The notes beneath the pieces are model-generated. The model was given only the letters and a program-made list of their open reading frames with translations, did no database searches and had not been told where the DNA came from. Below are positions 17,873-20,959 of a stretch of 39,663 nucleotides of DNA, piece after piece. Origin of the DNA: Rhodospirillales bacterium RIFCSPLOWO2_02_FULL_58_16. GTDB lineage: Bacteria; Pseudomonadota; Alphaproteobacteria; Rhodospirillales; 2-02-FULL-58-16. The stretch covers positions 1 through 39,663 of the forward strand of contig MIAA01000049.1 in the NCBI GenBank assembly GCA_001830425.1, given 5' to 3'. Both the position numbers and the translations under genes were made by a program. Position 1 is the first letter of the stretch. Each line of letters opens with the position of its first letter.

Positions 17873-19279
17873 CTAAAAATGTATGGCGCGCCCGAAAGCG
17901 TCAAGCGCCGACTCGTGCATCATCTCTGATAGGGTCGGATGCGGAAAGACAGTTTGCATCAGTTCGGCCTCGGTGGTCTCCAGGCCCATGGCGACGGCAT
18001 AGCCCTGGATCAGTTCGGTAACTCCGGCGCCGATCATGTGAGCGCCCAGCAATTCTCCGGTTTTTGCGTCAAACACGGTTTTGACCATGCCCTCCGTCTC
18101 GCCCAGCGCCATGGCCTTGCCGTTAGCGGCAAAGGGGAAGCGGCCGATCTTGACCTGATATCCCTTTTCCTTGGCCTTGTTTTCGGAAAGGCCGATGCTC
18201 GCCACCTGGGGCCGGCAATAGGTGCAGCCGGGAATGCGGGAGATATCCAGGGGGTGAACGCCGTTCAGGCCGGCGATCTTCTCGACGCAGATGATCCCCT
18301 CGTGAGAGGCCTTGTGAGCCAGCCACGGCGGGCCGGCGACATCGCCGATAGCGTATACGCCCGGCTCGCCGGTTCGGCACCATTGGTCGGTGACGATGTG
18401 CGTCCTCTCCACCTTGACCTTGGTCCCTTCGAGGCCGAGATTTTCGGTATTGCCGACGATGCCGGCGGCGACGATCACCCGATCCGCCTTTATGTCCAAT
18501 GTCTTGCCGTTATGCTCGACGGCGGCGGCAACGGAGTTCTTGCTTTTGACCAGGGACTTCACCGTCGCCGAGACATGGATTTCCATGCCTTGGGCGCGGA
18601 AAGCCTTGGCGGCCAGAGCGGAAATTTCCTCATCCTCAACCGGCAGCACCCGGTCCAGCGCCTCGACCACCGTCACCTTGGAGCCGAGGGTGCTGAAAAA
18701 ACTTGCGAACTCGATGCCGATGGCCCCCGAACCGACCACCAGCAACGACTTGGGAACGGTATCGGCGACCAGCGCCTCCCTGTAGGACCATACCAGCTTG
18801 CCGTCAGGCTCCAGGCCGGGAAGAATCCGCGCTCTGGCGCCGGTGGCGAGAATGATGTTTCTGGCGGAGAGTGAAGAGACCTTGCCGTCGGTCGTTTTCA
18901 CCTGAATTTTTCCCGGCCCGTCAAGACGCGCCGAACCGTCGATGACCGTCACCTTGTTCTTCTTCAAAAGGTGGCCGATCCCCTTGTTGAGTTGTTTGGA
19001 AATAGTACGGGAGCGCTCGACTATTTTCTTGATGTCAAAACCCACCCCCTTGACTTCGATTCCATATGCGGAGGCGTTTTGCATGTCGTGGTAGATTTCC
19101 GCCGAGTGCAGCAGCGCCTTGGTCGGAATGCACCCCCAATTAAGGCAAATGCCCCCCAGATGCTCCCTCTCGACCACCGCTGCGGACATGCCCAACTGGG
19201 CGGCGCGGATGGCCGCCACATAGCCGCCGGGACCGCCGCCGATGATGAGAAGATCGAAGGAAGGGACCGAGTTCATCAT
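17873..19279 (-). CDS. lpdA: dihydrolipoyl dehydrogenase (E3) of pyruvate dehydrogenase
   Basis: This is the E3 of the PDH complex, 468 residues. It has the FAD motif GGGPGGYVAA, the redox pair Cys45/Cys50 in GGICLNWGC, the NAD motif VGSGAIGIEFA, the IGDVAGPPWLAHKASHEG block and the C-terminal HPTLSEMMHES. It is normally directly downstream of pdhC; here a 1.5-kb integron cassette cluster intervenes. Its start (MMNSVPSFD) lacks a strong ribosome-binding site and differs from the displaced original start (MAEPSFD) still present at 20959. After separation it must rely on read-through or on a promoter in 19280-19406; a weak TTGAGT / 17-base spacer / TAACAA pair is visible on the minus strand near 19310-19340. 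Confidence 0.95.
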   Translation of the reverse strand: MMNSVPSFDLLIIGGGPGGYVAAIRAAQLGMSAAVVEREHLGGICLNWGCIPTKALLHSAEIYHDMQNASAYGIEVKGVGFDIKKIVERSRTISKQLNKGIGHLLKKNKVTVIDGSARLDGPGKIQVKTTDGKVSSLSARNIILATGARARILPGLEPDGKLVWSYREALVADTVPKSLLVVGSGAIGIEFASFFSTLGSKVTVVEALDRVLPVEDEEISALAAKAFRAQGMEIHVSATVKSLVKSKNSVAAAVEHNGKTLDIKADRVIVAAGIVGNTENLGLEGTKVKVERTHIVTDQWCRTGEPGVYAIGDVAGPPWLAHKASHEGIICVEKIAGLNGVHPLDISRIPGCTYCRPQVASIGLSENKAKEKGYQVKIGRFPFAANGKAMALGETEGMVKTVFDAKTGELLGAHMIGAGVTELIQGYAVAMGLETTEAELMQTVFPHPTLSEMMHESALDAFGRAIHF

Positions 19280-19406
19280 TGAGCAGACTTTCTGAACACC
19301 GCTTGGCCTACTTGTTATGTCTTTGATTTTGGAGACTCAAGTATGAACAGCTTGCGCCACCAACCGCACCCCCGGCGCTCCGCAGACTTTAGCGATGGTG
19401 TCATAG

Positions 19407-19462
19407 CGTGGAGCTAAGGGGCGCGCCGCTTTTGGCGCGTCCCGCTTGAACGAGGGGTTAGG
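19407..19462 (-). repeat. integron attC site, terminal copy, cut at the crossover base
   Basis: The 56 bases are identical to 20064-20119. In the minus-strand reading the site begins CCTAACCCCTCGTTCAAGC and ends CTTAGCTCCACG; the expected TTAGGC after the final G is replaced by unrelated CTATGACACC. The break falls exactly at the G/TT position where integron integrases cut, which marks the end of the array. The adjoining 19280-19406 stretch holds only a 29-codon frame that I cannot assign. Confidence 0.8.
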
Positions 19463-19737
19463 CCGGCCTGCGGCTCTACAAGACGCCCTGTGACGTACTT
19501 GTGAAGGACGCTGGACATCAATGTTTGATAAGGGATCGCTTCTTCTGCGGCCTTGGCTTGAATATCGTCGAGATCTCGGGAAGAAATGCGTATATTGACC
19601 CGCTTGTCTTTAGCCAGAGAAGCCGAGGCCATTGCCGCAAAGCGTGCAATTTCACTTTTGCCTTTTGGAGAGGGCTGCCATTCATCCCTTTCAAAGGAAG
19701 CCAGAATTTCTTCCTCAAGTTTTCTTTCTTTGTCCAT
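19414..19737 (-). CDS. antitoxin of BrnT-type pair, with attC-encoded C-terminus
   Basis: The 107-residue protein has an acidic N-terminus (MDKERKLEEEILASFERDEW) and a ribbon-helix-helix-like block (KDKRVNIRISSRDLDDIQAK; IPYQTLMSSVLHKYVTGRL), as in antitoxins paired with BrnT-like toxins. It starts one base after the brnT stop, with AGGAG 7 bases upstream. The last 15 residues (LTPRSSGTRQKRRAP) are read from the attC site and are identical to the tail of the protein at 20071-20346. It is the second gene of an integron cassette. Confidence 0.82.
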   Translation of the reverse strand: MDKERKLEEEILASFERDEWQPSPKGKSEIARFAAMASASLAKDKRVNIRISSRDLDDIQAKAAEEAIPYQTLMSSVLHKYVTGRLVEPQAGLTPRSSGTRQKRRAP

Positions 19738-19738
19738 T

Positions 19739-20017
19739 TCAACGCTCCTCATCAAGATAGATACGAGTGGCTTTTCGGCTCGGGATAATCGTTTTCAGGA
19801 AGACCTCCTGCTTTGTCTCTACAAACGGCACCAGATAGGCGTAGCCGCGAATACGAACCACAAACATGCGTTGGTTCGGATATTGATCTGTGTTCGGATG
19901 GTCCAGCACAACAAGAAGACCACCATTCGACATAGCCGACAGCACCTCCTCAAAAGATACGCCTCGCTCGGCTTTGAGGCGGATATTTTTCTCGGTGCTC
20001 CAGTTCACAGGTTTCAT
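19739..20017 (-). CDS. BrnT family toxin
   Basis: The 92-residue protein shows the family pattern: MKPVNWSTEKNIRLKAERGV, SFEEVLSAM, LDHPNTDQYPNQRMFVVRI, YAYLVPFVE and FLKTIIPSRKATRIYL. BrnT toxins are RelE-like ribonucleases. It is the first gene of its cassette, beginning 41 bases after the GTTAGGC core site, and is followed one base later by its antitoxin. The gene direction matches the attC orientation, as expected for cassette genes. Confidence 0.85.
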   Translation of the reverse strand: MKPVNWSTEKNIRLKAERGVSFEEVLSAMSNGGLLVVLDHPNTDQYPNQRMFVVRIRGYAYLVPFVETKQEVFLKTIIPSRKATRIYLDEER

Positions 20018-20057
20018 GCGGAGGATATTACACCTGTGTGCCTTATGGCATCAAGAG

Positions 20058-20120
20058 GCCTAACGTGGAGCTAAGGGGCGCGCCGCTTTTGGCGCGTCCC
20101 GCTTGAACGAGGGGTTAGGG
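20058..20120 (-). repeat. complete integron attC site
   Basis: On the minus strand the site runs CCCTAAC ... GTTAGGC over 63 bases. It has the inverse core, an L box (CGTTCAAGCGGG), a near-perfect stem (GACGCGCC / GGCGCGCC) with a short AAAAGC loop, a complementary L box (CCCTTAGCTCC) and the core. This layout is the standard attC of mobile integrons. It separates two cassettes and is oriented like their genes. Confidence 0.88.
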
Positions 20121-20346
20121 CTTGGGCATCAACGTAAGAATCCAGAAGCCGACGAATCATGCGCTGGTACTGTGTGTGATGCTTCGTGGCTTCGGTCTTG
20201 AAGAACTCGATGCTTTTTTTGCTCAGAGCGAGCGTAATCTTTACGCCCTCCTCACGAAAAGCTAACTCGCTTGGAGAAGGAAGAAAGTCAGTAACCACCC
20301 GAGTTTTGCCAAGGGGTTCATCTGTGTATTTGATTTTTGCGCTCAT
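20071..20346 (-). CDS. CopG/BrnA-like antitoxin homologue, orphan, in integron cassette
   Basis: The 91-residue protein reads MSAKIKYTDEPLGKTRVV, then EGVKITLALSKKSIEFFKTE and HHTQYQRMIRRLLDSYVD, which resembles small ribbon-helix-helix antitoxins found with BrnT/DUF4258-type toxins. No such toxin precedes it in this cassette; the upstream gene, which it overlaps by 29 bases, is the unrelated 176-residue protein. Its last 15 residues are encoded by the attC site. AAGG lies upstream of the ATG. Confidence 0.72.
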   Translation of the reverse strand: MSAKIKYTDEPLGKTRVVTDFLPSPSELAFREEGVKITLALSKKSIEFFKTEATKHHTQYQRMIRRLLDSYVDAQALTPRSSGTRQKRRAP

Positions 20347-20848
20347 AAATTACCTTAAGAAATGGGGCGGTTTCATTTGCACCACTACGCAACTCAGCCG
20401 AACCGGATTGTGGGTTTCCAAGCGTGGGCATAGTGCGGTTTTTCAGCAATGTGTTTGACCATGCTACCTTCTGCGCTTCAACTATCCAAAACGCATGTGG
20501 TAGAAGATGCTTATCAAGGCGCATGAGCCAGAGCTGATGCCACCCAGGATGAATGGGAGAGACACGACTCGTTAGTGAATATGCGGAAACAGCTTTGACC
20601 TGAACTTTGATTTCAGGTTGGGTGGCCAGAATAACTTTGATATCATAAGCATGCTGAGTAGCGGAACCAAATTCCAATGTTGCTTCCGGGAACCGATGCT
20701 CAGCGTAGATGCGCGCAAAGAACTCAGCAATGACACCAGTTTTCTGATCCCCAATGGGAATCTCTTGCGTGCGAGAGCGCTGAAGCCGCTCAAGTCTTGC
20801 GTAGGCGACTGCATACTGTTTAATTGCGTCGAAAATTTCTTGTACCAA
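20318..20848 (-). CDS. integron cassette protein, possible PD-(D/E)XK nuclease fold
   Basis: The function is not recognised. The protein has 176 residues with a helical opening (MVQEIFDAIKQYAVAYARLERL), then GVIAEFFARIYAE, and a pattern HAYDIKVIL followed by EIKVQVKAVSAYS. The order Glu, Asp, Q-V-K resembles a PD-(D/E)XK nuclease core, but this is tentative. The frame starts at a TTG at 20848, preceded by AGGAG at 7 bases and only 18 bases after the GTTGGCT core site, a typical cassette layout. Its 3-prime end overlaps the antitoxin-like gene by 29 bases, so the two may function together. Confidence 0.6.
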   Translation of the reverse strand: MVQEIFDAIKQYAVAYARLERLQRSRTQEIPIGDQKTGVIAEFFARIYAEHRFPEATLEFGSATQHAYDIKVILATQPEIKVQVKAVSAYSLTSRVSPIHPGWHQLWLMRLDKHLLPHAFWIVEAQKVAWSNTLLKNRTMPTLGNPQSGSAELRSGANETAPFLKVIYERKNQIHR

Positions 20849-20865: not shown

Positions 20866-20888
20866 AGCCAACGTAGAGCTAAGGGGCG
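20866..20888 (-). repeat. half attC site fused to lpd fragment
   Basis: On the minus strand CCCCTTAGCTCTAC-GTTGGCT matches the second half of the attC sites downstream (CCCCTTAGCTCCAC-GTTAGGC). The first half is missing; GC-rich sequence of the broken lpd copy joins here through the shared string CGCGCC/CGCC. It marks the upstream boundary of the cassette cluster. Confidence 0.7.
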
Positions 20889-20959
20889 GCGCGTATAACC
20901 GCCACATAGCCGCCGGGACCGCCGCCGATGATGAGAAGATCGAACGAAGGTTCAGCCAT
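20879..20959 (-). pseudogene. 5-prime fragment of lpd left next to pdhC
   Basis: The 26 codons MAEPSFDLLIIGGGPGGYVA.. repeat the FAD-binding start of the downstream lpd, then stop at a TAG supplied by the attC half-site. Some 46 bases are identical between 20895-20940 and the intact gene. The fragment keeps an excellent ribosome-binding site (GGAGGG) 8 bases after the pdhC stop, so it is likely the original lpd start of the pdhA-pdhB-pdhC-lpd operon. Confidence 0.85.

Follow-up and report, generated by a model that had tools for sequence, protein, structure and literature searches.

Two neighbouring reading frames in a small cassette array end in the same 15 residues, each of them running into an identical attC site and stopping within it. 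This raises the question of whether an integron recombination site can supply a genuine protein end and, if so, whether it does so for cassette proteins in general or for particular proteins only. The array lies in a contig of 39.7 kb, belonging to a genome of 2.73 Mb in 53 contigs; the whole stretch of DNA analysed (39,663 nucleotides) is referred to as the window. From the data given below, we put at roughly 0.6 the probability that attC acts as a coding 3′ end, supplying the conserved basic tail of two clades of ribbon-helix-helix (RHH) antitoxins that are partners of BrnT.

Organisation of the Cassette Array

All features of the array are located on the minus strand, flanked by two genes of the pyruvate dehydrogenase cluster, and are arranged in downstream order as the 3′ half of an attC, a 176-aa ORF, a CopG-like ORF, an attC, BrnT, a BrnA-type antitoxin and a second attC:

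20867–20886 (about), minus strand: another attC, 3′ half only (CCCCTTAGCTCTACG/TTGGC), marking where the array begins on its upstream side, assigned by eye
20318–20848, minus strand: 176-aa ORF of cassette 1, without family match, its end resembling the BrnT end
20071–20346, minus strand: CopG/BrnA-like antitoxin, 91 aa, toxin partner probably lost here; homologues adjoin BrnT
20071–20118, minus strand: tail LTPRSSGTRQKRRAP and stop TAG of the CopG-like antitoxin, attC-encoded (sequence, ORF translation, probe matches)
20058–20119, minus strand: attC of cassette 1, bottom-strand hairpin with z = −2.76
19739–20017, minus strand: BrnT toxin, upstream partner of the BrnA antitoxin (PF04365, E = 2.6e-7, just under the curated cut-off)
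19414–19737, minus strand: coding sequence of the BrnA/CopG-type antitoxin, 107 aa from the ATG at 19737 (ORF list, Pfam match, homologue starts)
19414–19461, minus strand: tail LTPRSSGTRQKRRAP and stop TAG of the BrnA antitoxin, attC-encoded (sequence, ORF translation, probe matches)
19404–19463, minus strand: attC of cassette 2, with the 3′ boundary G/CTATGAC in place of G/TTAGG, end of the array

The cores CCTAAC and GTTAGG of the attC at 20058–20119 fit the patterns RYYYAAC and GTTRRRY, and the bottom strand of this site folds as a hairpin. The two copies are identical apart from one end, where the second has the altered 3′ flank G/CTATG, and a 26-nt attC probe gave two matches in the window compared with 0 expected in shuffles. 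With its CCTAAC/GTTAGG cores, its bottom-strand hairpin and its small ORFs, each followed by an attC, the locus is like integron gene cassettes (59-base element), from which it differs in that the coding sequence uses most of the attC. Searching the genes of the genome with the integron integrase model TIGR02249 revealed a best match of 83.6 bits against a cut-off of 265; there being no integron-integrase gene above this cut-off in the 53 contigs, the array is a small attC cluster without integrase.

Reading Frames of attC and the Shared Tail

Frames were counted from the C of CTAAC. Frame F0, CTA ACC CCT CGT TCA AGC GGG ACG CGC CAA AAG CGG CGC GCC CCT TAG, gives the 15-residue tail with its stop at CCTTAG; F1 meets an immediate stop, the TAA in the first core; and F2 reads NPSFKRDAPKAARPLAPR up to a stop TAG in the last core. 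Both ORFs (19414–19755 and 20071–20346) run into the identical attC in the same frame F0 and end in LTPRSSGTRQKRRAP with the stop TAG, confirming the observation of an attC-read, shared tail that the initial annotation had made.

Since a stop is present in every attC frame, an ORF entering the site in whichever frame may come to a chance, and harmless, end there. The tail might accordingly be incidental read-through, where the stop happens to fall in attC, one accidental junction is inherited per clade and the tail arises neutrally from a site conserved for recombination. We regard this explanation as possible but rather doubtful, in view of the homologue and constraint data reported below.

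Probable Identity of the Tailed Proteins and of the BrnT Partner

The ORF at 19414–19755 had been labelled a BrnT antitoxin, and the two tailed proteins had been called unrelated; both designations had to be revised. The protein is most probably a BrnA/CopG-type antitoxin, and the probable BrnT toxin is encoded at 19739–20017 without the tail. The span 19414–19755 represents the same frame begun at an upstream TTG; the likely start of the antitoxin is the ATG at 19737 (107 aa), matching its homologues. All Pfam matches remained under the respective cut-offs, with PF12441 (E = 5.6e-5) and PF14384 (E = 0.0068) for the 19414 ORF, PF14384 (E = 0.0059) for the 20071 ORF, and PF04365 for the BrnT ORF (31.3 bits versus a cut-off of 34.5, covering profile positions 1–75 of 77). 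The RHH parts of the two tailed proteins align at 19% identity with E = 0.002, and both weakly match antitoxin RHH models; as judged from this similarity, they are distant RHH relatives. An AlphaFold model of the BrnA antitoxin, based on a shallow two-sequence alignment and having a mean pLDDT of 60, predicted helices at residues 53–65 and 70–83, fitting an RHH domain, while residues 91–106, right after the two helices, showed the lowest confidence and were without secondary structure.

A BrnT gene is found directly before the antitoxin gene of the window BrnA and in 24 of 30 related BrnA loci. The same applies to 19 of the 20 related CopG loci but not to the CopG gene of the window; in Candidatus Megaera, the CopG gene overlaps the preceding gene, which is annotated as BrnT. 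The 176-aa ORF ends in ...VIYERKNQIHR, to be compared with ...AIYERENQIHG of the BrnT upstream of CopG homologues, and only the last BrnT residues are present. From these BrnT-like last residues, we infer that the BrnT toxin gene before the window CopG was probably deleted; the 176-aa ORF would then be fused to the end of the deleted gene, and the CopG antitoxin would be left toxin-less with its attC and tail kept.

With the type II toxin-antitoxin system BrnT/BrnA of Brucella abortus (review PMC5086665), the locus shares a gene order in which a BrnT-like toxin gene immediately precedes that of an RHH antitoxin. Unlike in that system, the antitoxins described here have an extra basic tail, attC-encoded in cassettes, and the Pfam scores are under the curated cut-offs. 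The genome has another nine BrnT genes scoring above the Pfam cut-off, all of them outside the array (other contigs, L001–L008).

Survey of attC Sites for Frame Use

It had been proposed that attC adds a standard C-terminal tag to cassette proteins in one frame. Sites of the window type were collected from 16 genomes of one bacterial order and a few plasmid integrons, a selection narrower than a sample of all integrons. At the score used, the detector found about 113 sites, compared with about 3 in shuffled sequence, and 102 sites with array support or a high score were counted. Clear ORFs at these 102 sites ended before attC (36), at the F1 core TAA (21), in F2 (6), late in F1 (3), in F0 (3) or past attC (3). 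The three F0 cases were the BrnA antitoxins in the window and in genome G432 and a small membrane-like protein (L041), so that F0 use outside the antitoxins amounts to about 1 in 66 cassettes. A general frame bias towards F0 is thus not borne out by the survey, BrnA antitoxins accounting for two of its three F0 cases. Cassette ORFs are usually without an attC tail and attC is not a standard tag, most ORFs ending before attC or at the F1 core. What holds of the proposed rule is its application within the two antitoxin clades, where all attC-bearing members use F0 and the tail persists without attC; the predicted attC-encoded tail is a conserved property of these two clades. A scan of viral contigs for the attC pattern gave no match.

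The survey also bears on the idea that the overlap serves translation, ribosomes entering attC to melt an mRNA hairpin that would otherwise keep the next cassette from being translated. It is known that attC hairpins hinder downstream translation, an effect on the next cassette that can be lifted by short ORFs in attC or attI (review PMC8876359), but such a role predicts F0 or F2 use across cassettes generally, whereas the survey shows otherwise, and it leaves basic tails without attC unexplained, making it highly improbable here. ORF-11 and ORF-18 at attI1 and the short ORFs within attC (PMC8876359) have in common with our case that an integron recombination site is translated, as predicted here; those ORFs are, however, separate short peptides acting on the translation of the next gene, whereas here the site encodes the end of the cassette protein itself.

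The Tail in BrnA and CopG Homologues

The homologue set comprised 50 proteins from one bacterial order (30 BrnA, 20 CopG) in addition to the two of the window, the 30 close BrnA homologues having been gathered in the order with a profile of four BrnA bodies. A narrow-pattern scan of genome contigs revealed one locus, L016 in a Sulfuricella MAG, whose antitoxin has 88% identity to that of the window and a tail one change away (LTPRSSGTRQKRRVP followed by the stop). Almost all BrnA homologues carry a K/R-rich tail of 15–20 residues after the RHH domain. The tails of attC-bearing BrnA members, read in F0, are of the KRR type, for example LASRSSGTPRKRGAP, ITTRSTRPRVKVARAG and LTTTRSTRTRVKAARAG; where attC is damaged or gone, the tails are SPSRPTRQKRRAS in L120, VPRSGATRPRRRTA in L118 and TSATRKPAAKRRASSGR in L134. 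In L120, the left arm of attC is lost and TRQKRRAS is retained with synonymous changes. The separate CopG clade follows the same pattern, with LTVHSSGRAGKRQAP and LTRRSTGRTTKRRAA, and EAPRRGSRTDKRRAP without attC. The retention of a tail of this kind in related antitoxins with a decayed attC makes it probable that the tail genuinely belongs to the antitoxin protein, and we infer that it is translated. Tails of about 15–20 residues in nearly all attC-less members argue against incidental read-through.

F0 was used in 24 of 24 attC-bearing antitoxin loci, two of them shortened by an early stop, with the presence of attC assigned by score and partly by eye. The spacers between RHH domain and attC vary by whole codons only (4, 6 or 13 codons in BrnA; 3 or 5 in CopG), and this restriction of junction length to in-frame changes is another point against read-through. 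Counts over related homologues are not independent events; the F0 junction may go back to as few as two independent origins, perhaps a single one in each clade. In a tree of the antitoxin bodies, built from few columns and with weak deep support, members with and without attC are interleaved, requiring at least 4–5 forced changes, and the tail-less BrnA of other classes are placed outside.

Evidence against a coding role of attC comes from the wider BrnA family, which does without the tail: a basic tail is absent from the BrnA homologues of other classes across the rest of the phylum, and four of them (L172, L173, L174 and L175), located before other attC types, stop in F1 or F2 and are tail-less. 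Furthermore, one attC-less member (L130) has an acidic tail, and three CopG members (L151, L162 and L165) end early. In viral contigs, no BrnA homologues were found; CopG homologues were present there at eight loci (L189–L196), being Megaera-like, without attC and ending in HKKLKKA, a short basic tail of their own.

Constraint on the Tail at the DNA and Protein Levels

Comparing the window with L016, using codons for the part before a 2-codon deletion and a nucleotide alignment for the tail, 2 of 48 nucleotides differed in the tail and roughly 40 of 267, mostly synonymous, in the body. The sole sense change in the tail, Ala to Val, is nonsynonymous and converts a hairpin mismatch into a pair. 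As this comparison indicates, DNA-level constraint dominates while attC is intact, the attC part being far more conserved than the gene body, as would also be expected if the tail were a by-product of the recombination site. Selection on the protein must therefore be tested where attC is lost. Loss of the hairpin is visible in folding, with a mean z of −2.12 with attC and −0.61 without.

In nine pairs of attC-less tails, all BrnA, pN/pS was 0.51; shuffling the order of the codons gave 0.755 ± 0.054 (0 of 200). Net charge averaged +4.58 over 19 attC-less BrnA tails, compared with +2.30 ± 0.51 when the bases were shuffled. These deviations from the shuffled expectation indicate that attC-less tails are constrained as protein and kept K/R-rich by protein-level selection; they also speak against a neutral by-product. 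The F0 reading of 82 control attCs is itself already basic, with a mean charge of +2.7, a point that read-through can claim in its favour. Attached to attC, antitoxin tails were more basic than these controls (+4.3 versus +2.7, p = 3e-5, a descriptive value only, since the rank and Fisher tests used ignore relatedness). As the attC type is basic in F0 on average, basicity alone is weak evidence, and the antitoxin tails are only moderately enriched.

If the tail is functional, DNA binding would be its most likely role, a disordered cationic extension strengthening DNA contact for operator binding or autoregulation. Alternatively, the tail might keep the antitoxin labile by marking it for proteolysis, in the manner of the basic, MuA-like C-terminal motifs recognised by ClpX; this we consider unlikely. 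ClpX recognises MuA-class basic C-termini with the consensus R/H-x-K/R-K-hydrophobic (PMC3983244), and in many tails a basic stretch gives way at the end to Ala and a small residue (KRRAP, TKRRAA, RKRAAG); the window tail R-Q-K-R-R-A-P, however, fails this consensus (C-motif 2), and the extreme C-terminal residues are freely variable.

Proposed Origin and Implications of the attC-Encoded Tail

In the reading that we prefer, attC as a coding 3′ end, a BrnTA module would have become a cassette with the antitoxin gene last, the last 15 codons and stop of which fell within attC in F0. The basic F0 tail beside the RHH domain would then have become useful, most likely for DNA contact, and would have been retained as attC decayed. 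An alternative order is possible, in which an older basic tail was replaced by attC. We see about even odds that the recombination site has been co-opted for a coding role, attC being a folded integrase substrate and also the coding end of a functional tail, and that outside the integron, the peptide is selected while the site decays.

Antitoxins are common in cassette arrays and are thought to stabilise them. If the tail is functional, such antitoxins would depend on a mobility site for part of the protein, and a single 60-bp element would be under two selections, one for single-strand folding and one for the peptide. The tail would, moreover, be a molecular fossil marking genes that were once cassettes. 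De-recruited cassettes turned sedentary genes have been described (PMC1382264), and the attC-less homologues of the same antitoxins are as expected after attC loss; the difference is that a protein-coding attC remnant appears to be kept by selection here.

In the literature searched, which lay mostly outside subscription journals, no report of a conserved attC-encoded protein tail was found. Since attC is treated as non-coding and ORFs are trimmed there in annotation, attC-encoded protein ends are easily missed. One published procedure for annotating cassettes ignored or cut back ORFs that reached at least 15 bp into the site (PMC1382264), and would thereby hide a case like that of the window.

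Insertion Site of the Array

The last attC ends (19404–19420) in G/CTATGAC and not in G/TTAGG, and this changed end suggests either insertion at a secondary site or a later change at the array end. The array sits within the broken second start of the dihydrolipoamide dehydrogenase gene (lpd; window positions 19221–19279 and 20879–20959). Behind E2 come 26 codons of lpd that end in the attC remnant, and a complete lpd is found on the far side of the array. Among relatives in which both genes were readable, most have lpd starting within about 40 nt after E2; from this close spacing, it follows that this is where the array was inserted, the start of lpd being duplicated.
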